Shown: piece after piece, positions 7,820 through 21,179 of the stretch
How the letters are laid out: every line of letters starts with the position of its first letter
Position numbering within the stretch: position 1 is the first letter of the stretch
Source: an uncultured Bacteroidales bacterium
Lineage (GTDB): Bacteria > Bacteroidota > Bacteroidia > Bacteroidales > P3
DNA: 54,603 nucleotides
Assembly: GCA_900319865.1 (NCBI GenBank)
Contig: ONQD01000025.1
Location: 1 to 54,603, forward strand
Reading direction: 5' to 3'
Notes under the pieces: generated by a model
Database searches by the model: none
The model's input: the letters and a program-made list of their open reading frames with translations, nothing else
What the model was told of the DNA's origin: nothing
Position numbers and translations under genes: made by a program

Positions 7820-10800
7820 ATGCAGAATAAAGGACTTATCAAATTTCTTACATGGGCATTTGTCTTAGTATGTTTGTACCAATTGTCGTTTACACTTGTT
7901 ACAAGCAGAGTTGAGAAGAATGCAGCCAAAGCAGCGGATGCCTATGTGAAAAGCACAACAGCTCAAAATTTGATTGACAAAAAAGCACATGGAGATGCAT
8001 TGTATGCACAATCGCTGAAGGATTCGTTGCAGATTGCAAGAGAGGCGCAGTACCTTGATTCCATGGCAAGTGAGAAAGTGTACCTCGGCTACACCTACCG
8101 TCAGTGCCAGGCCCGTGAGATTAACCTGGGCCTTGACCTTAAGGGCGGTATGAACGTGATGCTTGAGGTATCGACAGTGGATGTGGTTCGCGCCCTGGCC
8201 GGACACACTGAGGATTCGGTGTTCAACAAGGCTATTGACATGGCCTTGGCCACCCAGAAGAAGACCACGAACCGCGACTTCGTGTCGTTGTTCTATGATG
8301 CCATACGCGAGGTGAACCCCGATGTGCAGCTGGCCTCCTATTTCAATACTCAGTTGCGCGACCGCATCAAATTGAACGACAATAACGATGCCGTTATCAA
8401 GGTGGTGAGGGAAGAGGCCGCCGGTGCTTATGACCGCACCTACGAAATCCTCCGTCAGCGTATTGATAAATTCGGTGTCGCCCAGCCCACCATCCAGCAG
8501 TTGCGTGCTTCGGAGCGCATACTTGTTGAGCTGCCCGGTGTGAAAGACCCGCAGCGTGTGCGCAAGCTCCTCCAGGGTACTGCCCAGTTGGAGTTCTGGC
8601 TGACTTACGACAACGTCCAGGCATACGAGATGTTGGAGAAGGCCGATTCTTACATTGCCTCTATCGGCGGTGTTGAGAATGAAGAGAAGGAAGAGACTGC
8701 AGAAGTCGCTTCCGAGGAGCTGGCTGAGAATGCAGCCGCTACCACAGAAGGCGACTCCCTGTTGAATGCCTTGGGTGCTGCCACGAACAATGATTCGGCT
8801 GCCACGAGCGAGCTGACCAAAAATCACCCCCTCTTCAACGAGAATATGCTGATGCCGAATATCAACCAGCAGGGCGGCCTGATGAATGGCCCCGTGGTTG
8901 GATATGCACGTGCCCAGAGCCGCGACGCTATCAGCCGTATGATTGAGACCGCTTTCGACAAGAAGGTTCTCGACAGACGTACCGTGAAATTCCTTTGGAG
9001 CGCCAAGCCCGTGCAGGATGGTTCTGATATCTATCAGCTCTTCGCTATCCGCATCAATACCCGCGACGGTTCCGCACTGCTCGACGGTGGCGTGATTACC
9101 GATGCCCGTCAGGACTTCAGCAACGCTGGCGGCAACGAGATTTCTATGACAATGAATAGCGAGGGCGCACGCGAGTGGAAACGCATCACTGGCGAAAATG
9201 TGGGCAACTGCATCGCTATCGTACTCGATGACTTGGTTTACTCGGCTCCTGTGGTCAACGGTGAGATTGCCGGTGGCCGTTCGTCCATTACCGGCGGCTT
9301 CACCCTTGAAGAGGCCAAGGACCTTGCCAATATTCTTAAGTCTGGTAAACTGCCTGCTCCCGCAGTTATTGTGCAGGAGGCCGTGGTTGGACCTTCGCTG
9401 GGTCAGGAGTCTATCACAAGAGGTCTTATCTCGTTTATCCTTGCTTTCGTAATTGTACTTATATATATGGTGGTGTTCTACAACCGCGGTGGTTGGGTCT
9501 CCGCCATAGCACTTGTGACCAATATCTTCTTGCTGATGGGTGTGCTGGCCTCCGTGGGAGCAGTGCTCACCATGCCTGGCATCGCCGGTATTGTGCTGAC
9601 CTTGGCAATGGCTGTTGACGGTAACGTCATTATCTATGAGCGTATCAAGGAAGAGCTTCGTGCCGGTTCGAGCATGTCCAATGCTGTGTCGGCCGGTTTC
9701 AGCAACGCTTATTCGGCTATTATCGATGGTCAGGTGACCACCTTCCTGCTGGGTCTCGTGCTCATCATGTTTGGTTCCGGTCCTGTTCAGGGTTTTGCCG
9801 TGACACTCTGCATCGGTATTGCTACCTCTCTGTTCACTTCTATCTTCATCACCCGTCTGTGCATCGACTGGATGTTGAACCATAAGAAGAAGATTAACTT
9901 CTCGTTCCCCTTCTCGGAGAACTTCATGCGCAATGCTCACTACGATTTCATTGGCAGACGCAAGACTTTCTATATCATTGCTTGCTGCGCAATAGTGATT
10001 TGCCTTATCGGTATCTTCGGACGCGGATTGAGCCGTGGTATTGACTTTACTGGTGGTCGTACCTATGTGGTACGCTTCGACCAGCCCGTGAATGCTGTTG
10101 AGGTTCGTTCGGCTCTCGACAAGCAGTTTGGTGAGGCTCCCGAGGTGAAGACCTATGGCCCCAGCACCCAGTTGAAGATCACGACCAAATATAAAGTGAA
10201 TGAAGATGGCGAAGCTATCAACAATGAGATTGCCTCGATGCTTTATAACGGTACCAAGGATTTCTTTGCCAACGGCATTAGCGAGGATGAGTTCCGTAGT
10301 ACTGAGACCAATCCGTTAGGTATCATCCAGTCGGAGCAGGTGGGTGCCACCATTGCAAACGACTTGGTGCGTAACGCTTTCTTGGCCGTATTCGGCGGTC
10401 TGCTTGTGATGTTTGTGTATATCGGTCTCCGCTTCCGCAGCTGGCGCTTCGGTGTGGGTAGTGTTGTGGCTTTGGCACACGATACTATTCTGGTTATCGG
10501 TTTCTTCGCACTGCTTCATGGACTGCTGCCCTTCAATCTCGATGTCGACCAGTCGTTCATAGCGGCTGTGCTGACGGTTATCGGTTATTCTATCAATGCC
10601 ACCGTGGTTATTTTCGACCGTGTGCGTGAATACCGCAAACTCTACCCGAAACGTACTCTCAAGACTCACATGAACGATGCTATCAATTCGACTTTGGCAC
10701 GTACCATTAACACCAGCGGCACCACGTTCTTCACTCTGTTGATGATGTTCATCTTCGGTGGTGAGGTAATCCGTGGATTCATCTTTGCCATTTTGATTGG

Positions 10801-10891
10801 TGTTCTTTGCGGTGTGTTCTCGTCGGTATGCATTGCATGTTCGGTTGTGTACGAGATTTCGCGTCGCGAACAAAAAGAATTGAAAGCATAG
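7820..10891 (+). CDS. secDF: Protein translocase subunit SecDF (fused)
   Basis: The 1023-residue protein is a natural SecD-SecF fusion, as is usual in Bacteroidetes. The SecD half starts with one membrane segment and GLDLKGGMNVML (about 104-115), has the large periplasmic P1 region, and the TM4-type motif AMAVDGNVIIYERIKEEL. The SecF half begins at about residue 703 (MRNAHYDFIGRRK), with GIDFTGGRTY and SINATVVIFDRVRE. An acidic, Ala-rich insertion at about 285-325 of the P1 region looks lineage-specific. The protein uses the proton-motive force to assist late stages of Sec export at the inner membrane. Confidence 0.97.
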   Translation: MQNKGLIKFLTWAFVLVCLYQLSFTLVTSRVEKNAAKAADAYVKSTTAQNLIDKKAHGDALYAQSLKDSLQIAREAQYLDSMASEKVYLGYTYRQCQAREINLGLDLKGGMNVMLEVSTVDVVRALAGHTEDSVFNKAIDMALATQKKTTNRDFVSLFYDAIREVNPDVQLASYFNTQLRDRIKLNDNNDAVIKVVREEAAGAYDRTYEILRQRIDKFGVAQPTIQQLRASERILVELPGVKDPQRVRKLLQGTAQLEFWLTYDNVQAYEMLEKADSYIASIGGVENEEKEETAEVASEELAENAAATTEGDSLLNALGAATNNDSAATSELTKNHPLFNENMLMPNINQQGGLMNGPVVGYARAQSRDAISRMIETAFDKKVLDRRTVKFLWSAKPVQDGSDIYQLFAIRINTRDGSALLDGGVITDARQDFSNAGGNEISMTMNSEGAREWKRITGENVGNCIAIVLDDLVYSAPVVNGEIAGGRSSITGGFTLEEAKDLANILKSGKLPAPAVIVQEAVVGPSLGQESITRGLISFILAFVIVLIYMVVFYNRGGWVSAIALVTNIFLLMGVLASVGAVLTMPGIAGIVLTLAMAVDGNVIIYERIKEELRAGSSMSNAVSAGFSNAYSAIIDGQVTTFLLGLVLIMFGSGPVQGFAVTLCIGIATSLFTSIFITRLCIDWMLNHKKKINFSFPFSENFMRNAHYDFIGRRKTFYIIACCAIVICLIGIFGRGLSRGIDFTGGRTYVVRFDQPVNAVEVRSALDKQFGEAPEVKTYGPSTQLKITTKYKVNEDGEAINNEIASMLYNGTKDFFANGISEDEFRSTETNPLGIIQSEQVGATIANDLVRNAFLAVFGGLLVMFVYIGLRFRSWRFGVGSVVALAHDTILVIGFFALLHGLLPFNLDVDQSFIAAVLTVIGYSINATVVIFDRVREYRKLYPKRTLKTHMNDAINSTLARTINTSGTTFFTLLMMFIFGGEVIRGFIFAILIGVLCGVFSSVCIACSVVYEISRREQKELKA

Positions 10892-10925: not shown

Positions 10926-11330
10926 ATGGAAACATTTCTCTATATCACGCTGATTGTACTCTGGATAGGGGTCGCGCTGTACAGGTCTGTACGGAAGGCC
11001 CGTATTCAGGATGCAGAATCGGGATTGGAGGATTTTGTTTCCGCCAAACCTGCCTATGAGTCTCTTTTTGAAGAAGAGACTCATGGCAGTTATACACAGG
11101 AGGAAAAACCATTCTCCAACTACTTCAGTTATGAGAATGAACCCGAACCGATGCATTCCAAACCGTCAAAACCCAATCCAGTGCGGGAGGAAAAGGTGGC
11201 AACACCTGCTACTGCTACAGAAAAGGAGACGGTGCGTAATGCAGAGTTCGATCTCCGTCAGGCGGTAATATACCAGACAATACTGAACAACAAGTATATC
11301 TCGAAAGAGAACTCTTATGAAATTAATTAA
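10926..11330 (+). CDS. Small membrane-anchored hypothetical protein
   Basis: I do not recognise a family. The 134-residue product has one N-terminal membrane segment (about residues 4-20, FLYITLIVLWIGVALY), then a basic stretch and a long hydrophilic, Glu- and Pro-rich region that is probably disordered, ending in a more ordered helix-like segment (FDLRQAVIYQTILNNKYI). It begins 34 bases after secDF and ends 29 bases before the TonB-receptor gene, so it may be co-transcribed with either. The topology suggests a short anchor with a cytoplasmic tail. Function unknown. Confidence 0.6.
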   Translation: METFLYITLIVLWIGVALYRSVRKARIQDAESGLEDFVSAKPAYESLFEEETHGSYTQEEKPFSNYFSYENEPEPMHSKPSKPNPVREEKVATPATATEKETVRNAEFDLRQAVIYQTILNNKYISKENSYEIN

Positions 11331-11359: not shown

Positions 11360-14300
11360 ATGTTTAAAAAAGTACTAATGACAATCGGTCTGCTGCTGAT
11401 GGCAAATATTGTCCTCGCGCAGGGTACTATCAGAGGTACCGTAATCGATCAGAAGACAAAAGAGCCTGTGCCTTTTGCCAACGTCGTTGCTAAGCAAGAC
11501 GGAAAACAAATCAAGGGTACACAGACAGATTTTGAGGGTAATTTCACAATTAGACCTTTGGATGTCGGTAAATACGATATTCAAGTATCTTATGTGGGAT
11601 ATAACACATACACCCGTGAGGAATTCCAAGTGAAGGCCACAGGTGTTTCTGTCTGTAATATTGAACTCACTGTAGGTTCAACCACCCTTGAGACAGTAGA
11701 AATTAAGGATAGCCGAAACCCGATTATTGAGATTGGCTCGGCTGAAGTTGGTCAAACAATGTCATCCGATGATATCGACCGCATGCCAAGTACCACTATT
11801 GATGGTATCGTTTCGGCAGTCGGTGGTGTCGGATATAACGATGGTGGTACCAGTACCGCTCGTGGTGAGTCCGGAATGGTGACTATGACCGGTGGCGTTC
11901 GTAAACGTACCGGTGTTAATGTGCCTAAAGAGGCAATTGCTGAGATTAAGGTTGTGCTCGGTGGTACTCCTGCTTCTATTGGTGAGGCTATCGGTGGTAC
12001 CCAGATTATTACCTTGAAACCGCCCCAAAGCCAGTTCCATGGTTCTCTCCGTTATGACACTTACCTGGATTATAGAATGTATAACGCCCTTGCTCTCTGG
12101 CTCACTGGTCCTGTTATCAAACAGCCCATCAAGGATGAGGAAGGCAACGTGACCGGTGACCGCACTCTTGTTGGTTTCCGTTTCACTCTGCAACCCGGTT
12201 ATCAGAACAACTCATTCTACCGTCCTAAGGATTCCCGCTATTTGGTGGTGAACGACGCATTGGTTCGCCAGTACGAGGCTGCTCCTATCAACTACGATCC
12301 TGTGAGAGGTACTGTCGACTACTCGGCAGAAAGGGGTCTTTATCGCGACGATTTTGTTGAGATAAAGAATTTGACCAGAAACGACTTTGGCGGCGATGCC
12401 AGTCGTGTTCCCAACACTCAGTCTTACTCCATCAATTCCCAGTTGGCATTTGATATGAGGTTTTCCGATTACGCCACCTTCACTCTGACAGGCGACCTCA
12501 ACTATGCCAAGGGCCATGGCTCTTCTGTCACTCCTTTGAATATGCCCCGCACGGGTAACGGAGTTTCCGAGCAGGTGAACTGGACCGTTACCGCCGACTT
12601 TACTCAACGTTTCCCCGATGCAGAACCCGCTTCTGCAGACAATACAGAAGGAAGCAGCAGTGCTGCAAAGTCTATCAAGGATGTGAAATACAGCATCATC
12701 GCTATGTTCGACCGTATTACCTCCAAGTCCTATAACGAAGTTTTCGGTAGTTCTATCAATGATGTTTTCAAGTATGGATACAATGGTCGTTTAGAGACCA
12801 ATCAAGTGCCCACTTATGAGCTGGATCCTTCATTCAACTATAATGGTATCAGCCGTGCCGCCATGGTTCAGAACAACTGGTATGATGTAATTGATTGGTC
12901 AACTTATGAGCCATATGCCGGCAATCAGATATTAGCCAACTACAATCTGCAATTGCTCAACATTCCTGAGGTTTCCGGTATGCTGACCAATATCAACAAT
13001 TTGCGCTACTACAGGGGACTTGCAAATGGTGATTTTCCATCGAATATTCACGGTTTGATTAACAATGTGGGTGTCCAGAGCACTAGTTTTGGCTACTCTG
13101 CTACCAACTATATCTATGTTACTGCTAAGGCCAGCGCCGAAATCATGAACCACGCTATCGAAATCGGTTTCCAGTATGACCGTCAGGATGCTTCGTCCTA
13201 CTCAATTGCCGCTGGTGGTCTTTGGACTTTAATGCGTGATATTGCCAATAGGCACATTAAGGAGATGGACAAAAGCAATCCCCATTATCGTTGGGTTGGT
13301 TCCACTCTTTATGTCGACTATGACCGTTTGTTCAACGCCGAGAGCCAGTCATATTTTTCCAAAGCCATGCGCGAATATCTCGGATGGGCTGGCGATTATG
13401 CGGGTGAACGTACTTTCTTGGATGTTGACCGCTACACTCCCGAAGATTATGTTAAAGCCGGTGGCGTCGACATGTTCTCCTCCGATGAGTTGTTCAATAG
13501 CTACAATGGTGTCTATGTCAGCTATTACGGATATGACCATGCCGGTCACAAGTATAACAGCAGTAACTGGAGTTTGAAAGACTTCTTCAACCCCAGCGAC
13601 CCCAAGAAACGTTATATTCCTTCTTATACCCCCACCTATATGGCTGGTTACATTCAAGACCAGTTCTATTTCTCTGACCTTATCTTCAACGTTGGTGTGC
13701 GTGTTGACGTGTTCGATGCCAACCAGTTCGTGCTTAAAGACCCCTATCTGTTGTATGAGTCTTTTACTGTCAAGGATTTGAGAAACGGCAACGCCCCTTA
13801 TCAGGGTGACATCTATTCTGGTGCTGGCGACAATTGGGTGGTTTATGTGGACGCTCCCGAAGTCGATAACCCCACTATTTTAGGCTATCGTAATGGTTCT
13901 GTATGGTATGATGCTAATGGTGTGGAACTCAGCAATACCAATTCTATTGTTGGTACGTCTGGTAAACCCACTCCTTATCGTACCCCCAATGGCCGTAAGG
14001 CTCTTGACAACAAAACCGTTGGTGTGGAATCTTTCGAGGATTACAAACCTCAGGTGGTTGTTCAACCCCGTATTGCTTTCTCCTTCCCTGTTGGCGAAAG
14101 ATCTCAGTTCAAAGCCAACTTCGACATTATCGCCCGTCGTCCTTCCAGTGCTTGGCGTGCTGATTACGTCAGCTATCTTTTCATGAGCAAAGTTGGATCT
14201 ATCAACAACCCCAACTTGAAACCCGAGCGTATCACCAACTATGAGCTTGGTTTCCAACAGGCACTTAACGACAATAATGCAATCAGCATTAGTGCTTACT

Positions 14301-15121
14301 ATAAAGAGACCCGTGACCTGATTCAGCTGGTTCAATACTCAGGTGCTGACCCCAATCCACAATACTATTCCTACGACAACCTTGACTTTAAGACCACTAA
14401 GGGTGTGACCATTTCCTACGACATGCGTCAATCGAAAAATATCCGTGTCAATGCAAACTACACTCTTCAGTATGCTGAAGGTACTGGCTTGAGCTCCACT
14501 ACTATGACCGAGCTCATTAAGGAAGGTTATACCACTTTGAAGATGTTGTGTCCTATCAGCGATGACCGTCGTCATGAGTTTAAGGTCAACTTCGACTTCC
14601 GCTACCTTGGCGGCTCTAAGTATAACGGACCCACCATCACCCGTGCCGTTAAGGACAAGGAGACTGGTGAGATGCGTAGCGAAACCATCAAGGTTCTCGA
14701 AAACTTCGGTGTTGACTTTGTTGCCGTCGCCCAGTCTGGTCGTCCGTATACCAAGGCCTTCAGCCACAAACAGTATACCATTGTAGGTGGTTATAACGGA
14801 GCTAACATGCCTTGGAGTTTCTTCTTTGATATTATCATCGATAAGAGTTTCCCCATCAAGGTTGGTAAGAACGATACCCGTTTGACCGTGGCTCTATCTA
14901 TTAATAACCTCTTTGATATCCGTAACACTGCCAGCGTATTCAACGTTACCGGTAACCCTGACGACAATGGTTATTTGACCGACCCCGAGACACAGGCCGA
15001 CATCAACAGAACGCTTGATCCTACTTCTTACAGAGATTTGTACACTATTGCTTACCATAATGGCTACTGGAACTACACCTCTCCGAGAACCTTCAGACTT
15101 AGCTTAGCCTATCGTTTCTAA
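11360..15121 (+). CDS. TonB-dependent receptor with carboxypeptidase-regulatory-like domain
   Basis: The 1253-residue outer-membrane protein has a signal peptide (1-20), a CarboxypepD_reg-like beta domain at about 22-105 (GTIRGTVIDQKTKEPVPFA), a plug domain at about 125-220, then a large barrel ending LRLSLAYRF-like (SPRTFRLSLAYRF) with the terminal Phe used for barrel assembly. It is longer than many TonB receptors. No SusD partner follows; instead a T9SS cargo and a PorV-like barrel follow on the same strand, 30 and 32 bases apart. I infer an uptake or surface-assembly role linked to those proteins rather than SusC-type glycan uptake. The substrate cannot be read from sequence. Confidence 0.9.
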   Translation: MFKKVLMTIGLLLMANIVLAQGTIRGTVIDQKTKEPVPFANVVAKQDGKQIKGTQTDFEGNFTIRPLDVGKYDIQVSYVGYNTYTREEFQVKATGVSVCNIELTVGSTTLETVEIKDSRNPIIEIGSAEVGQTMSSDDIDRMPSTTIDGIVSAVGGVGYNDGGTSTARGESGMVTMTGGVRKRTGVNVPKEAIAEIKVVLGGTPASIGEAIGGTQIITLKPPQSQFHGSLRYDTYLDYRMYNALALWLTGPVIKQPIKDEEGNVTGDRTLVGFRFTLQPGYQNNSFYRPKDSRYLVVNDALVRQYEAAPINYDPVRGTVDYSAERGLYRDDFVEIKNLTRNDFGGDASRVPNTQSYSINSQLAFDMRFSDYATFTLTGDLNYAKGHGSSVTPLNMPRTGNGVSEQVNWTVTADFTQRFPDAEPASADNTEGSSSAAKSIKDVKYSIIAMFDRITSKSYNEVFGSSINDVFKYGYNGRLETNQVPTYELDPSFNYNGISRAAMVQNNWYDVIDWSTYEPYAGNQILANYNLQLLNIPEVSGMLTNINNLRYYRGLANGDFPSNIHGLINNVGVQSTSFGYSATNYIYVTAKASAEIMNHAIEIGFQYDRQDASSYSIAAGGLWTLMRDIANRHIKEMDKSNPHYRWVGSTLYVDYDRLFNAESQSYFSKAMREYLGWAGDYAGERTFLDVDRYTPEDYVKAGGVDMFSSDELFNSYNGVYVSYYGYDHAGHKYNSSNWSLKDFFNPSDPKKRYIPSYTPTYMAGYIQDQFYFSDLIFNVGVRVDVFDANQFVLKDPYLLYESFTVKDLRNGNAPYQGDIYSGAGDNWVVYVDAPEVDNPTILGYRNGSVWYDANGVELSNTNSIVGTSGKPTPYRTPNGRKALDNKTVGVESFEDYKPQVVVQPRIAFSFPVGERSQFKANFDIIARRPSSAWRADYVSYLFMSKVGSINNPNLKPERITNYELGFQQALNDNNAISISAYYKETRDLIQLVQYSGADPNPQYYSYDNLDFKTTKGVTISYDMRQSKNIRVNANYTLQYAEGTGLSSTTMTELIKEGYTTLKMLCPISDDRRHEFKVNFDFRYLGGSKYNGPTITRAVKDKETGEMRSETIKVLENFGVDFVAVAQSGRPYTKAFSHKQYTIVGGYNGANMPWSFFFDIIIDKSFPIKVGKNDTRLTVALSINNLFDIRNTASVFNVTGNPDDNGYLTDPETQADINRTLDPTSYRDLYTIAYHNGYWNYTSPRTFRLSLAYRF

Positions 15122-15151
15122 TACATCCATCGAGTAAAAATAATATAAGAT

Positions 15152-18100
15152 ATGAAGAATATATTTAGCAAATTAGTATTGGTGGCTCTCCTGATAACAG
15201 TCGTATCGGGATCTGCTTATGCCGAGGTTTGCAAAGAATGCAAGAACACTTCCTCCCGCAAGGCAGCCCTCCGCAGCAAAGCCGCCGTGTGTAAACGTGC
15301 ACAAAGTACCGCTGAGCTGAATGTCAACAATGTTCGTGCATTGATTAATGGATATGGCAATATGTGGTATGATGGTAGTGTGGCACAATATCACCTGCCC
15401 AAGAATAGCAATACTTGCCCGCTTTTCTGCGCTGCATTGTGGATTGGTGGTACCGATGTCAACGATCAGCTTCGTATTGCTGCTCTTCGTTTCGGTTCGG
15501 ATGGTGATGACTATTGGCCGGGTCCTCTTGAGCTGAGAACAGCTTCTGTCGACCTTCCTGTCTGTAACTATTTCGACAAACATTACATTATCACCAAAGC
15601 TCAGGTACAATCGTTTATGTCCATGTTCGATTATACCGAACTTGGTGCAACTCCCAACGATTCCTATTCTCCCGAGGCTGTTCCCGCTGTTATTAAGGAA
15701 TGGCCTGCTTCAGGTATCAATGATAGGCAGTCTCCTTATCTGGCTCCTTATTTCGATGCTGATCACAATGGTAAGTATGAGTGGGAGAAAGGTGATTACC
15801 CCTATTATGATTTCAATAATGATCTCTGCCCCCGTACGCTGAAAGCAAAATGGGGAAGAGAATACACTTCTCATGTTGCTACTACCCTTGAGACCGAACA
15901 TAATATTGTGACCGGTGGTCTTCTCTCCGACCAGGTTCTGAAAGGTGACCAGTGCATTTGGTGGGTTTTCAATGATATGGGTGACATCCATCTGGAGTCC
16001 CAAGGTCAGCCTATCGGTATGGAAATCCGCGCTCAGGCATTTGCCTTCTCTACCAATGATGAAATCAACAATATGACCTTCTATACCTATGAAATCATCA
16101 ACCGTTCTACCTATGAGTTGCGTGAAACCTACTTCAGCCAGTGGGTTGATCCCGACCTGGGTTACGCTCATGATGACTTTGTGGGTTGCGACGTGAAACG
16201 TGGACTTGGCTATTGCTACAATGGCGACCTCTCCGACGGTCCTGGTTCCGGTTCCTATTCTGGCATTCCTCCTGCAGTAGGTATCGACTTCTTCCAGGGT
16301 CCTTACATGGATCCCGATGGTAAGGACAACCCCAAGATTGATATTGGTAAAATGCGTTCTTACTTTCCCGATCAGTTGAAAAACTACCGCCTCCCCGACG
16401 GCACATACGATACCATCCGTCTCACCGACGATGCCGACCTTTACTATCCCAATGCATGGTATTTTGTTCCTGGAGATGCTATCGGAAACTGCGCTATCAA
16501 TGGTGTTAACTTTGGTAACAACATTGTTGACGATGAACGTTTCGGTATGCGTCGTTTCGTATACTATAACAACGATTTAACTACAACAGGTGAGCCTACA
16601 AAAGCTACTGACTACTATAACTACCTGCGTGGCATTTGGAAGAACGGTGCCCGTATGAAATACGGCGGAAATGGTTTCAACGAAGGTACTACTGAGTTTG
16701 ATTGCGACTTCATGTTCCCCGGCAACAGCGATCCTATGTATTGGGGTACTAATGGTAATGCGGTTCCTGAGTGGACTGAAGTTACTGCAGGTAACCCTCC
16801 CGCTGACCGCCGTTTTATGCAGTCGGCTGGTCCCTTCACCTTGAAACCTGGTGCTCTTAACTATATCACTGTTGGTATTCCTTTTGCCCAGGCTGCTTCT
16901 GGTGATAACTATTCTTCGGTCGAAGTGCTTCGTGAAATCGATGACGTTTGCCAGGCACTTTTCGAAAACTGTTTCAAGGTTCTTGACGGTCCCGATGCTC
17001 CCACAATGGTTGTTCAGGAAATGAGCAATGAGCTTATCCTCTATATTAAATACGATAATCCCAGCAGCAACAACTTTGGTGAGCGCTACTCGGAAATCGA
17101 TCCTGCTATCGTTCGTTCTTATACCGATGCCAATGGCAATCCTGTTGTCTACTCCGATGATGAACGTAGCTATAAATTTGAAGGTTATCAAATCTTCCAG
17201 CTCCGCGATGCTAATGTCTCTATTGCCGACATTCGTGATATCACCAAGGCCAAACAGGTTGCTCAGTGTGATGTCCGTAACTTCTACGATGCAATCGAGA
17301 GCGTAACTTACGATAGCGTCCATAATGTATACGACACTGTTTTCAACGACAATCCTTCACTGCCTATCGGTACTTTGGTTAACTACTCACAAAACTCTGT
17401 TACCGGACTTCTCCAGCCGCAGATTATGGTTGAAGGTACCAATAAAGGTATTCAGCACGTGTTCCGTATCAAGACCGATGCCTTTGCATCCGGATCCAAT
17501 ACTTCTCTTGTAAACAACAAGAAGTACTACTTTGTTTGTATCGCTTATGCTCAGAACCGTTTCAAAGAGTATTCTCAGACTGAGGCTGCTTTCCTCGACG
17601 GTCAGAAAGAGCCCTACCTCTCGGGTCGTAAAGATGAGTTTGGAAGAACCATCACTCCTATTGAGTGCATTCCTCACGATCCTTCGTCTGAGAATGGGGG
17701 TACTGTTGTGAATGCTGAATTCGGCATGTGCCCCAATATCACCCGTATCGAAGGTTATGGTAATGGTGGTTCCGTACTCCGTCTCACCGACCAATCTATT
17801 GAAGAGTTGATGGGTGCTCCCGGTGTTCCTGGCAAGCCCGCTGGTAAGATGCGCGACGATGGCAACGGCATGGCTGCTAATCCTTGCGTTATCCTCAACC
17901 CCCGTTACGAACAGAACAATGGTCCTGTCCATGTTGAAGTAATTGATCCTCTTAGTGTTAAAGCTGGTAAGTTCATCATCGCTTTCGATAAGAAATCTGA
18001 TATTAATAACTGTGGTTGGACTATTTACAAATCACCCGAAGATCCTACCTATTCAGACAATCCTTATATCTATGACTCTGTTCTTTCGGTTAAGTCCGAT

Positions 18101-19987
18101 TTCACATTGGAACGTTACAACGAGCAGCTCTTCCTCGATTTAGGTATTGCAGTCGGTATTAGCAATCCTCAAGAAATTGCCACACCTCTGCATATCACCA
18201 CACAGAATAATGAGAACTTTGAGTCTCGTTATTGGGGTGGTTTTGTAAACGACAAGACTCTCATCGGTTCTAAAGTTACCTTTGCTGATAACTCCAAACC
18301 TTGGCTCCTTTCTCTTGAAGACAATGATGATGCCATGCTATACAACTGGGTTCGTTCTGGTACTCAATTTGCAGGTAAGACCCACAATGCCTTCACTGCT
18401 ACTCAAGGTGCCATTAGCCTCTCCGAGACTTATCTTGATGAAGACTACTTTAAAGGTATGCTTGAAGTCATGAATGGCAATCCTTCCTATGTCGGTGTCG
18501 ACCGTTTCGAGGTCTTCGAAGATGTTGAAGGTGGTTGGGCTCCTTATGGTTTGGTTTCCACATTGCCGTTCCATCCTGGTTTCTGCTATCGCTATTATGT
18601 GACCAATGATCATATCATAGATAGTGTATGTCGTCTGAAAGACAACTATCCCGCTATCTATAACAAATGGACCATTACCCGTAACACTATGGATAATATC
18701 TGGAACAAATCTCTGAACTTTAACGATATCTCTAAACTTCCCAGTGTCCGTATCGTCCTCACCAACGACACTTCCAAGTGGACTCGTTGCCCGGTTCTCG
18801 AGATGTGCGACGACTATACTCAATCCGAAGGCAATGCCCGTCGTTTCCAAATCCGTCGTCACGCTTCTGTCGACAAACTCGGCCGTACCATCGACCAAGT
18901 GAATACAACTGCCGATGTTAACGACCCCGGCAATCCTTGCTATATTAGTGAAACTGGTATGGGTTGGTTCCCCGGCTATGCTATCAATACTGTCACTGGT
19001 GAGCGTCTCAATGTTCTTTTCGGTGAAGACTCACGTTATATCCAGTACAACGGTGCTGACATGCTGTGGAATCCCACCTCTATGACTGACCTCATGGATG
19101 GTACTCAAAACTATGTCATGGGAGGCCGTCATTTCATCTATGTGATGAATGCTACCAGCCAGCCTTTCTATGATATCGTGAATAATTCAAATAGTGTTGT
19201 TACCTCCTTCAGGACTCCTTCATACGATGCTGGCCGTTGGGCTCTCCAGATGCTTTCATCTCTCGACCGCCTTATGAATTATGTTGGAACAAATGATGTC
19301 ACACGTTTAATCTGCAATCATGGTGTACTTGCAGGTGAGAGCACCACTCTCATCCCGCAGCGCGACTCTGCAGCTTTGTTCTTTGCTTCTGTTGCTTGGG
19401 TGAACATGCCTTTTGTTAATCCTCGCTACAAGTTCCAGAACCCCATTGACATTCCTTGCGATGTTACCATTGATCTGGATGTCAACTCTCCCTACGGTCG
19501 TTACCTCTCTGGCAATGGCACACATGTACGCCTCTTCCCGGATGCTACTGTTCAAAACGACAACTATCCCATGTATATGTTTGAACTTACACCCGATATT
19601 GCCACTCTCACCGGTCAAGCCACTAATAATACCGCCCGCAAGTCCTATCAAGATTCTATCTTGAGCAGGATTAGTGTGGTCCCGAATCCTTACTATAGCT
19701 ACTCCACCTATGAGACCCTCAGCCAGTTGGAAACCAAGGTCCGTTTCATCAATGTTCCCGAGCATTCTATCATCTCTATCTACACTGTTGATGGTACCCT
19801 GGTCCGTCGTCTTGGTCCCACCTCTGGTTCGGCCACAACTCTCGACTGGGATTTGCACAACCACGACGGTATTCCTATCGCAGGCGGTGTATATCTCATC
19901 CACTTCAAAGTACCTGGCATAGGTGAACGTGTTGTCAAATGGTTTGGTACCATGCGTCAGGTTGACTTAGACTCCTTTGGCTTCTAA
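15152..19987 (+). CDS. Giant secreted protein with T9SS C-terminal domain
   Basis: This 1611-residue protein has a signal peptide (about 1-24), a Cys-containing start of the mature protein (CKECKN), and an N-terminal region with NVRALINGYGNMWYD and LFCAALWIGGTDVNDQL, a pattern I associate with large T9SS surface proteins of Bacteroidetes. The last 100 residues look like a type A sorting domain: VVPNPYYSYS at about 1508-1517, IYTVDGTLVRRL, then DGIPIAGGVYLIHF and GERVVKWFG, with a further short tail ending DLDSFGF. The predicted route is Sec export, then T9SS transport and cell-surface attachment. Function is unknown and no catalytic domain is evident. The upstream receptor and downstream PorV-like protein suggest it works with both. 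Confidence 0.85.
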   Translation: MKNIFSKLVLVALLITVVSGSAYAEVCKECKNTSSRKAALRSKAAVCKRAQSTAELNVNNVRALINGYGNMWYDGSVAQYHLPKNSNTCPLFCAALWIGGTDVNDQLRIAALRFGSDGDDYWPGPLELRTASVDLPVCNYFDKHYIITKAQVQSFMSMFDYTELGATPNDSYSPEAVPAVIKEWPASGINDRQSPYLAPYFDADHNGKYEWEKGDYPYYDFNNDLCPRTLKAKWGREYTSHVATTLETEHNIVTGGLLSDQVLKGDQCIWWVFNDMGDIHLESQGQPIGMEIRAQAFAFSTNDEINNMTFYTYEIINRSTYELRETYFSQWVDPDLGYAHDDFVGCDVKRGLGYCYNGDLSDGPGSGSYSGIPPAVGIDFFQGPYMDPDGKDNPKIDIGKMRSYFPDQLKNYRLPDGTYDTIRLTDDADLYYPNAWYFVPGDAIGNCAINGVNFGNNIVDDERFGMRRFVYYNNDLTTTGEPTKATDYYNYLRGIWKNGARMKYGGNGFNEGTTEFDCDFMFPGNSDPMYWGTNGNAVPEWTEVTAGNPPADRRFMQSAGPFTLKPGALNYITVGIPFAQAASGDNYSSVEVLREIDDVCQALFENCFKVLDGPDAPTMVVQEMSNELILYIKYDNPSSNNFGERYSEIDPAIVRSYTDANGNPVVYSDDERSYKFEGYQIFQLRDANVSIADIRDITKAKQVAQCDVRNFYDAIESVTYDSVHNVYDTVFNDNPSLPIGTLVNYSQNSVTGLLQPQIMVEGTNKGIQHVFRIKTDAFASGSNTSLVNNKKYYFVCIAYAQNRFKEYSQTEAAFLDGQKEPYLSGRKDEFGRTITPIECIPHDPSSENGGTVVNAEFGMCPNITRIEGYGNGGSVLRLTDQSIEELMGAPGVPGKPAGKMRDDGNGMAANPCVILNPRYEQNNGPVHVEVIDPLSVKAGKFIIAFDKKSDINNCGWTIYKSPEDPTYSDNPYIYDSVLSVKSDFTLERYNEQLFLDLGIAVGISNPQEIATPLHITTQNNENFESRYWGGFVNDKTLIGSKVTFADNSKPWLLSLEDNDDAMLYNWVRSGTQFAGKTHNAFTATQGAISLSETYLDEDYFKGMLEVMNGNPSYVGVDRFEVFEDVEGGWAPYGLVSTLPFHPGFCYRYYVTNDHIIDSVCRLKDNYPAIYNKWTITRNTMDNIWNKSLNFNDISKLPSVRIVLTNDTSKWTRCPVLEMCDDYTQSEGNARRFQIRRHASVDKLGRTIDQVNTTADVNDPGNPCYISETGMGWFPGYAINTVTGERLNVLFGEDSRYIQYNGADMLWNPTSMTDLMDGTQNYVMGGRHFIYVMNATSQPFYDIVNNSNSVVTSFRTPSYDAGRWALQMLSSLDRLMNYVGTNDVTRLICNHGVLAGESTTLIPQRDSAALFFASVAWVNMPFVNPRYKFQNPIDIPCDVTIDLDVNSPYGRYLSGNGTHVRLFPDATVQNDNYPMYMFELTPDIATLTGQATNNTARKSYQDSILSRISVVPNPYYSYSTYETLSQLETKVRFINVPEHSIISIYTVDGTLVRRLGPTSGSATTLDWDLHNHDGIPIAGGVYLIHFKVPGIGERVVKWFGTMRQVDLDSFGF

Positions 19988-20019
19988 TCATTAATCGTTA
20001 ATCTTAAATACTGACAGAA

Positions 20020-21096
20020 ATGAAAAATATATTTAGAATAATTGCAGTAGTCGCATTGATGATGCTTCTGTCCGCCGAGTCCGCCTGGGCTGGTAACGAC
20101 AGACGTAGAGGTACCTCCGGAGCCATGGAGCTTTTGATTAATCCCTGGGCCCGCAGTACCGGTTGGGGAAGCGCCAATGTTTCCTGTGTACGCGGTTTGG
20201 ATGCTTTTTATTCGAACATTGCCGGTCTGAGCTTTATCAACACAATTGAGGTAAGCTACACCAACACCCTTCTTGCCGGCGGCAAGTCTGGTTTGAACAG
20301 TGGTGCTTCTATCAATTCGTTTGGTATCGCCGTCCGTCTGTTCGATCAAGGCGTTTTAGGTATCAGTTTAATGGCTATGGGATTTGGCGATATCGATGTC
20401 ACCACAGTTGAAAGTCCCGAACCTATCAACGGTACATACTCTCCCACACTGATGAACCTGAATTTCGCTTATGCTCACTCGTTCACTCAATCCATTCATG
20501 GTGGTGTGAATGTTAAGATTCATAGCGAGTCTACCAGCAACATTACAGCAAGTGCCTTTGCTGTCGATGCCGGTATTCAGTATGTAACCGGTGAGGATGA
20601 CCAGTTGAAGTTCGGTATCAGCCTCAAAAACTGGGGCCCCGCTTTTAGCTATAATGGTACAGGTCTTTCGTTCCAGTTCATCAACGATGCACAGAACACC
20701 ATGTCCGCCCAGTACCGCCCTGCCGAGATGGAGCTTCCCACCTGCCTTAACATCGGTGCATCCTACGACTTCTTTATCCCCGTCTGGGATCAGAAAATCA
20801 CCTTGGCTGGTGCTTTCACATCCAATGCTTTCTTGAAAGACAATTTTGCCCTTGGTATTGAGTATGGCCTTCTTAACATCCTCAACCTCCGTTGCGGCTA
20901 TGTCTATCAAACTGACATCTTCAACTCCGAGCTTAGCACTACCGCTAATCAAGGTCTCTGCGCCGGTGCGTCAGTGAATATTCCTATGCACAAAAAAGAT
21001 AGTGACAGCAAAATGGGTCTTACCATCGACTATTCTTTCCGTGCTGGTTTGAATCTTAAATCCACCCACGCCATCGGAGCTACTTTCCGCTTCTAA
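20020..21096 (+). CDS. PorV/PorQ family outer-membrane protein
   Basis: The 358-residue protein has a signal peptide (about 1-24) and the PorV/PorQ-like start of the mature protein, MELLINPWARSTGWGSANV, followed by ANIAGL-type text (FYSNIAGLSF) and a beta-barrel ending in THAIGATFRF. In T9SS, PorV is the barrel that receives cargo from the translocon and passes it to the attachment complex. A copy directly after a T9SS cargo gene suggests a dedicated shuttle, though that is inference. It ends in a strong terminator at 21122-21151. Confidence 0.85.
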   Translation: MKNIFRIIAVVALMMLLSAESAWAGNDRRRGTSGAMELLINPWARSTGWGSANVSCVRGLDAFYSNIAGLSFINTIEVSYTNTLLAGGKSGLNSGASINSFGIAVRLFDQGVLGISLMAMGFGDIDVTTVESPEPINGTYSPTLMNLNFAYAHSFTQSIHGGVNVKIHSESTSNITASAFAVDAGIQYVTGEDDQLKFGISLKNWGPAFSYNGTGLSFQFINDAQNTMSAQYRPAEMELPTCLNIGASYDFFIPVWDQKITLAGAFTSNAFLKDNFALGIEYGLLNILNLRCGYVYQTDIFNSELSTTANQGLCAGASVNIPMHKKDSDSKMGLTIDYSFRAGLNLKSTHAIGATFRF

Positions 21097-21121
21097 GAGA
21101 GCGAATATAACATAAGAAAGA

Positions 21122-21156
21122 TTAGGAAAGGCTTTCCAAAGCCTTTCCTAATTTTT
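21122..21156 (+). terminator. Terminator after the PorV-like gene
   Basis: Perfect 14-base arms (TTAGGAAAGGCTTT / AAAGCCTTTCCTAA) are followed by TTTTT, closing the 11360-21096 unit. Confidence 0.8.
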
Positions 21157-21179
21157 AGACACTTAAACAATTAATAGAT

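Follow-up and report, generated by a model that had tools for sequence, protein, structure and literature searches.

What do a TonB-dependent receptor, a giant protein with no named domain and an outer-membrane barrel do together when their genes lie end to end? The question is raised by a locus in the window, by which we mean the whole 54,603-nucleotide stretch of DNA that was analysed, from an uncultured Bacteroidales bacterium (Table 1). The original prediction, made from the letters alone, treated the giant as T9SS cargo, the barrel as its dedicated shuttle and the three proteins as an autonomous surface module. Below, the three genes are called the trio and the giant's C-terminal domain the CTD.

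Table 1. Features of the trio and its likely terminator in the window.
Feature	Position	Strand	Basis
TonB-dependent receptor, 1253 aa, with an N-terminal CarboxypepD_reg domain	11360..15121	+	Open reading frame, Pfam/NCBIfam; partner in the trio at 79/80 and 36/40 loci
Giant protein, 1611 aa, with an N-terminal signal peptide (by eye) and no named domain; proposed surface subunit	15152..19987	+	Open reading frame; Pfam, NCBIfam and PDB scans; relatives in 217/392 genomes of the phylum
CTD of the giant; region best shared with paralogs; in its own genome nearest to the PorU CTD	19649..19984	+	CTD profile scoring
PorV/PorQ-family outer-membrane barrel, 358 aa; under the PorV, PorQ and PorV2 cut-offs; proposed private dock of the giant	20020..21096	+	NF033709
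T-run hairpin, probably terminating the trio	21121..21152	+	Folding and hairpin scan

The three genes share the + strand, with gaps of 30 bases between receptor and giant and 32 bases between giant and barrel, and the stretch just behind them (21105-21165) has a folding energy of -23.6 kcal/mol (z = -8.3). The open reading frames and this hairpin agree with the predicted layout of three long same-strand genes closed by a strong terminator. A simple hairpin scan reports the structure at 21121-21152 on the - strand only, probably because the T run of the + strand lies partly within the stem. Ahead of the trio, the same strand carries secDF (7820-10891) and then a 134-residue protein (10926-11330), and the downstream neighbour is a greA-like gene, recognised by eye. 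The 134-residue protein has a hydrophobic N-terminus and is found in the genus between secDF and the receptor; its conservation is poor, about 32-43% among the loci listed, and Pfam gives no match.

Profile searches support most of the predicted gene identities. The first gene is indeed a TonB-dependent receptor (PF00593 at 5e-13, CarboxypepD_reg at 5e-19 in Pfam); it has no SusC model match, and its sole NCBIfam matches at E <= 1 are NF010010 and NF053590. The predicted absence of SusD also held, with none among the eight window proteins scanned against Pfam. The third gene encodes a PorV/PorQ-type barrel, as had been proposed, since it matches the NCBIfam family model NF033709 at 123 bits against a cut-off of 90. 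It is not PorV, PorQ or PorV2, scoring far below the cut-offs of all three equivalog models (52 of 250, 48 of 220 and 30 of 325 bits, respectively). PorV and PorQ proper are encoded elsewhere in the genome, which makes the trio's barrel a third paralog; TIGR03519, the model for PorP/SprF barrels, does not match it. The giant itself has no match in Pfam at E <= 0.1, in NCBIfam at E <= 1 or in the PDB at E <= 1, and none of eight paralogous giants scanned has a Pfam match at E <= 0.01. The earlier statement that it lacks a recognisable catalytic domain is thus upheld, none having been found in the Pfam/NCBIfam scans of the giant, its relatives and its paralogs.

Conservation of the neighbourhood had been set beforehand as a check on the unit. 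A trio was counted when its three members shared a strand and lay within 2.5 kb. In a set of 61 genomes, of which 37 (the bacterium's own included) belong to the genus, the barrel and the giant were each matched in 42. Genome contigs held at least 587 giant relatives, of which the best 80 were kept, all from uncultured or metagenome-assembled records. The trio is intact in 79 of these 80 best-scoring loci, with the receptor upstream and the barrel downstream of the giant; at the sole exception (L168) the giant begins at a contig end. Intergenic gaps run from -55 to 94 bases across 77 of the 80 loci.

The trio also reaches well beyond these close relatives. In a phylum-wide draw, 217 of 392 Bacteroidota genomes, from 136 of 179 genera, contain a giant relative at E <= 0.001; 142 of the 217 reach E <= 1e-20, and the weakest may be partial similarities. 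Of 40 distant loci from 38 genomes, 36 hold the trio (35 by the rule, plus L216, where the order is plain). Two of the other four (L211, L239) are cut by a contig end, and the remaining two (L238, L240) are partial giants with other neighbours. Relatives and trios this widespread rule out a local cluster of one genus, and the check on neighbourhood conservation comes out in favour of the unit in both sets of loci.

Within the genus, secDF and the 134-residue protein lie ahead of the trio, but neither was seen upstream in L071, L072 or L077. Genes resembling greA and HIT (the latter by an HxHxH motif seen by eye) follow the trio at 10 of 43 loci each, in genomes of the same order or class, and no other neighbour family occurs at more than 9 of the 43, so no fixed fourth component was found. 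The giant had no match among the 72,556 records of one plasmid collection.

Within some genomes the trio is present many times over. A profile of the CTD gave 9 to 44 matches in each of 24 distant genomes (470 in total at E <= 1), and one genome, G208, has at least 12 matches at 73 bits or more. From the 470 we drew 60 loci among the listed matches of 68 bits or more, covering 11 of the 24 genomes; they were picked by CTD score and position alone with neighbours unseen, and one contig (G176:C112) was also listed in the phylum-wide draw. All three genes are adjacent at 58 of the 60, in the canonical order at 56 and as receptor-barrel-giant at two (L285, L308). The two loci without a barrel are L294, which has a contig end upstream and no barrel downstream, and L268, which has no partners. 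Beyond the CTD, similarity between the paralogous giants and the window's group is limited to weak blocks. Judged by these sequences, the window's trio is one group of a large paralogous family. At L285 and L308, the changed order indicates that linkage outlives gene order.

The three members of the family also vary together. Among 55 trios from 11 genomes, the distances between proteins correlate with a rho of 0.76 for giant and barrel, 0.87 for giant and receptor, and 0.82 for barrel and receptor. Shuffling partners within genomes reduced the mean rho to between 0.07 and 0.11, and none of 1000 shuffles reached the observed value. Since the distance matrices match and the match is lost on shuffling, the trio duplicates and evolves as a unit. 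Such co-variation is compatible with co-inheritance in an operon without contact, and linkage alone could cause it.

The CTD bears on what happens to the giant after export, and here the original prediction needs correction. It had read a type A-like sorting domain in the giant. The type A model TIGR04183 does not match the giant, nor is the giant's C-terminus among the 89 matches (73 of them over the cut-off) that this model has in the genome at E <= 1, which rules out an ordinary type A signal on the window's giant; PF18962 does not match it either. A profile built from 34 giant C-termini and searched against the bacterium's own genome at E <= 10 found only the giant itself and the CTD of PorU. 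When all 89 TIGR04183 matches were scored with this profile, PorU reached 33.8 bits, the best ordinary CTD 11.7 and the median of the remaining matches 4.4; PorZ came third of the 89 with 11.0 bits, not separable from ordinary CTDs. By profile score, then, the domain closest to the giant's CTD in its own genome is clearly the CTD of PorU, rather than that of ordinary cargo.

Related giants give a graded picture. The PorZ model matches 30 of 31 giant relatives at E <= 0.01 in hmmscan, TIGR04183 matches 20 and the PorU model nine, and none of the three matches the window's giant. In the set of 32 aligned giants at the same threshold, TIGR04183 matches 20 and PF18962 three; PF13585 (type B CTD) occurs in one of the 32, again not the window's giant. 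When eight relatives were each scanned alone, the PorZ model hit seven, with the match confined to the model's C-terminal part. The PorZ model also hits four of seven paralogous giants. In the genome search, the CTD of the window's giant scored 18.8 bits for PorZ and 12.3 bits for PorU, both far below the cut-offs. A review states that neither PorU nor PorZ has its CTD processed, the domains remaining attached to PorV and PorQ, respectively, and it proposes that cognate PorV-like barrels protect CTDs (PMC10202324). As the giant's CTD is nearest to one reported as unprocessed, permanent docking is a likelier role for the trio's barrel than shuttling. On the simplest reading, by analogy, the CTD would be retained and would tie the giant to its dedicated barrel.

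The distribution of the trio follows that of the T9SS. The SprA translocon is present in 320 of the 392 Bacteroidota genomes, among them all 217 with a giant; the giant is missing from all 72 genomes that lack SprA. These SprA-less genomes are partly clustered (at least 15 come from one family), and the Fisher value for the co-occurrence is therefore overstated. Occurring only with SprA is what one would look for in a T9SS substrate, and the giant does so in 217/217 genomes; the trio either needs the T9SS or travels with it. Giants are lacking in 103 of the 320 SprA-positive genomes, so the trio is not a core part of the T9SS. The word "autonomous" in the original prediction is unlikely to be right, given that the unit would still depend on the general T9SS translocon.

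The neighbours of paralogous trios hint at what the family does. In all 53 cases the next gene downstream shares the trio's strand, and 21 of these 53 proteins have an ordinary T9SS signal. About a fifth of the 53 are glycoside hydrolases; the families listed (25 of 48) include GH16 (4), GH94 (3), GH3 (2), GH9 (1), GH30 (1) and the starch-binding CBM20 (3). Among 44 next-upstream proteins, 21 have a T9SS signal; CBM9 domains are found in seven, and regulators of the RpiR (2), LacI (1) and DeoR (1) types are also present. As a control we took 45 open reading frames from eight arbitrary 10-kb stretches in five of the paralog genomes; among the families listed (25 of 101), none of T9SS-signal or GH type had more than one member, though single members may be hidden; with the control assigned one, Fisher's test for T9SS-signal enrichment gives 9e-8. 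Taken together with the TonB receptor, this gene context points to nutrient uptake as the family's likeliest function. Other genes near paralogous trios encode M14 and M16 peptidases, rotamases and DNA-repair proteins, so sugars need not be the substrate of every copy. The window's copy sits beside secDF and greA, among housekeeping genes and not nutrient genes, and within the genus its giant finds a single strong match per genome. A separate observation on the 44 next-upstream proteins (L260-L319) is that seven are PPIC-type rotamase proteins and six have FG-GAP repeats.

We therefore propose, as a reading that we hold to be nearly as probable as its denial, that the trio is a SusCD-like uptake complex in which a T9SS-exported giant stays on a dedicated barrel (an anchor, not a shuttle) and serves the TonB receptor. 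The giant would be made with its signal peptide and exported through the T9SS translocon; we infer this route because of the complete co-occurrence with SprA and the PorU-related CTD. Its CTD would then be handed to its own PorV-family barrel and left uncleaved, as suggested by PorU, which stays on PorV, and PorZ, which stays on PorQ. As a permanent dock at the cell surface, the barrel would hold the giant in contact with the receptor, over or beside it. The giant would capture a ligand, and the receptor would import it with TonB energy, much as SusD serves SusC, so that a T9SS protein would take the place of the lipoprotein.

Three known systems help to place this proposal. SusCD combines a TonB receptor with a surface binding partner and is often found in carbohydrate loci. 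The trio likewise pairs a TonB receptor with a proposed surface binding partner, but no SusD occurs among the neighbours translated, the receptor has no SusC model match (E <= 1), the surface partner is presumed to be a T9SS protein and not a lipoprotein, and there is an additional barrel. PorU-PorV and PorZ-PorQ resemble the trio in joining a related CTD (clearly so for PorU, weakly for PorZ) to a PorV/PorQ-family barrel, and PorU adjoins PorV in the bacterium's own genome as the giant adjoins its barrel. Their CTD-bearing partner is exported by the T9SS, as the giant is presumed to be. They differ in that the giant matches the PorZ/PorU models in the CTD only, the trio's barrel is a third paralog, the trio includes a TonB receptor, and some lineages have many trio copies per genome. 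For type B CTD proteins (SprB-SprF, PG1035-PorP), a cognate PorP-like FadL-type barrel has been proposed as the anchor (PMC9143113), and the genes of protein and barrel are usually clustered (PMC10202324). Proposed anchoring by a cognate FadL-type barrel and clustered genes are thus shared with the trio, whereas the window's giant lacks PF13585, its barrel lacks TIGR03519, and the sections of these sources on type B mention no TonB receptor.

The chief competitor to the anchor is the shuttle. The barrel would pick up the giant at the translocon and deliver it to the PorQUZ attachment complex, where the CTD would be cleaved and the giant joined to A-LPS, and the receptor would be a functional neighbour. 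The review presents PorV, from the same family, as shuttling type A cargo (PMC10202324), PorU, PorZ, PorV and PorQ are all present in the bacterium's genome, and the weak TIGR04183 matches in 20 of 32 giants fit as well. Against this, the window's CTD misses that model and lies nearest to the CTD of PorU, reported as unprocessed in the same review, and a single PorV beside 73 TIGR04183 matches over the cut-off indicates that ordinary cargo does without private barrels. We regard the shuttle as unlikely. From the original idea of a dedicated shuttle, the dedication stands, since linkage and co-variation tie the barrel to the giant; the shuttling gives way to a likelier dock, given a CTD nearest to that of PorU.

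Uptake itself could be the wrong function, and the trio might build or maintain the envelope as an accessory of the T9SS or BAM, with the window's group in a housekeeping role. That group is phylum-wide and lies beside secDF and greA in the genus, and a FadL-type barrel, BamG, belongs to a Bacteroidota BAM complex according to one paper (PMC12578637); yet the 103 SprA-positive genomes without a giant, the GH genes and sugar-type regulators next to some paralogous trios, and the TonB receptor at 58 of 60 paralogous loci make such a role rather improbable. Least convincing is an old operon of three non-interacting proteins held together by shared regulation. Linkage and co-variation would both be compatible with it, but linkage has survived a change of order (L285, L308) and persists in many copies in 11 genomes, and the type of CTD predicts the presence of barrel and receptor at 58 of 60 loci, so we consider it very improbable.

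The uptake complex, if real, would matter beyond this locus. Bacteroidota nutrition is usually explained by SusCD. The trio may represent another kind of TonB-dependent nutrient machine in the phylum, SusCD-like in design, whose T9SS-exported surface subunit keeps its CTD and stays permanently docked on a private PorV-family barrel, an extension that we put forward tentatively and think somewhat doubtful. If true, it would add a widespread uptake system to Bacteroidota, give the T9SS a direct part in nutrient import, and make PorU-PorV and PorZ-PorQ members of the same barrel-CTD docking principle. We found no description of the trio among the best-ranked open-access literature, a scope that leaves out preprints and most subscription journals. 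The family provides many natural barrel-CTD pairs for testing the docking idea.

A few copies of the giant depart from the common pattern. Those at L238, L240 and L078, each cut by a contig end, have no barrel or TonB receptor on the readable side and adjoin a superoxide dismutase, a UvrD-type helicase or a propeller-histidine-kinase protein. One genome of the same genus (G012, 92% completeness) has neither giant nor barrel, a possible loss. Four others from the genus (contigs G001:C1, G004:C14, G010:C64 and G024:C38) carry a second, shorter frame of about 750-1050 aa that shares only the giant's N-terminal blocks.
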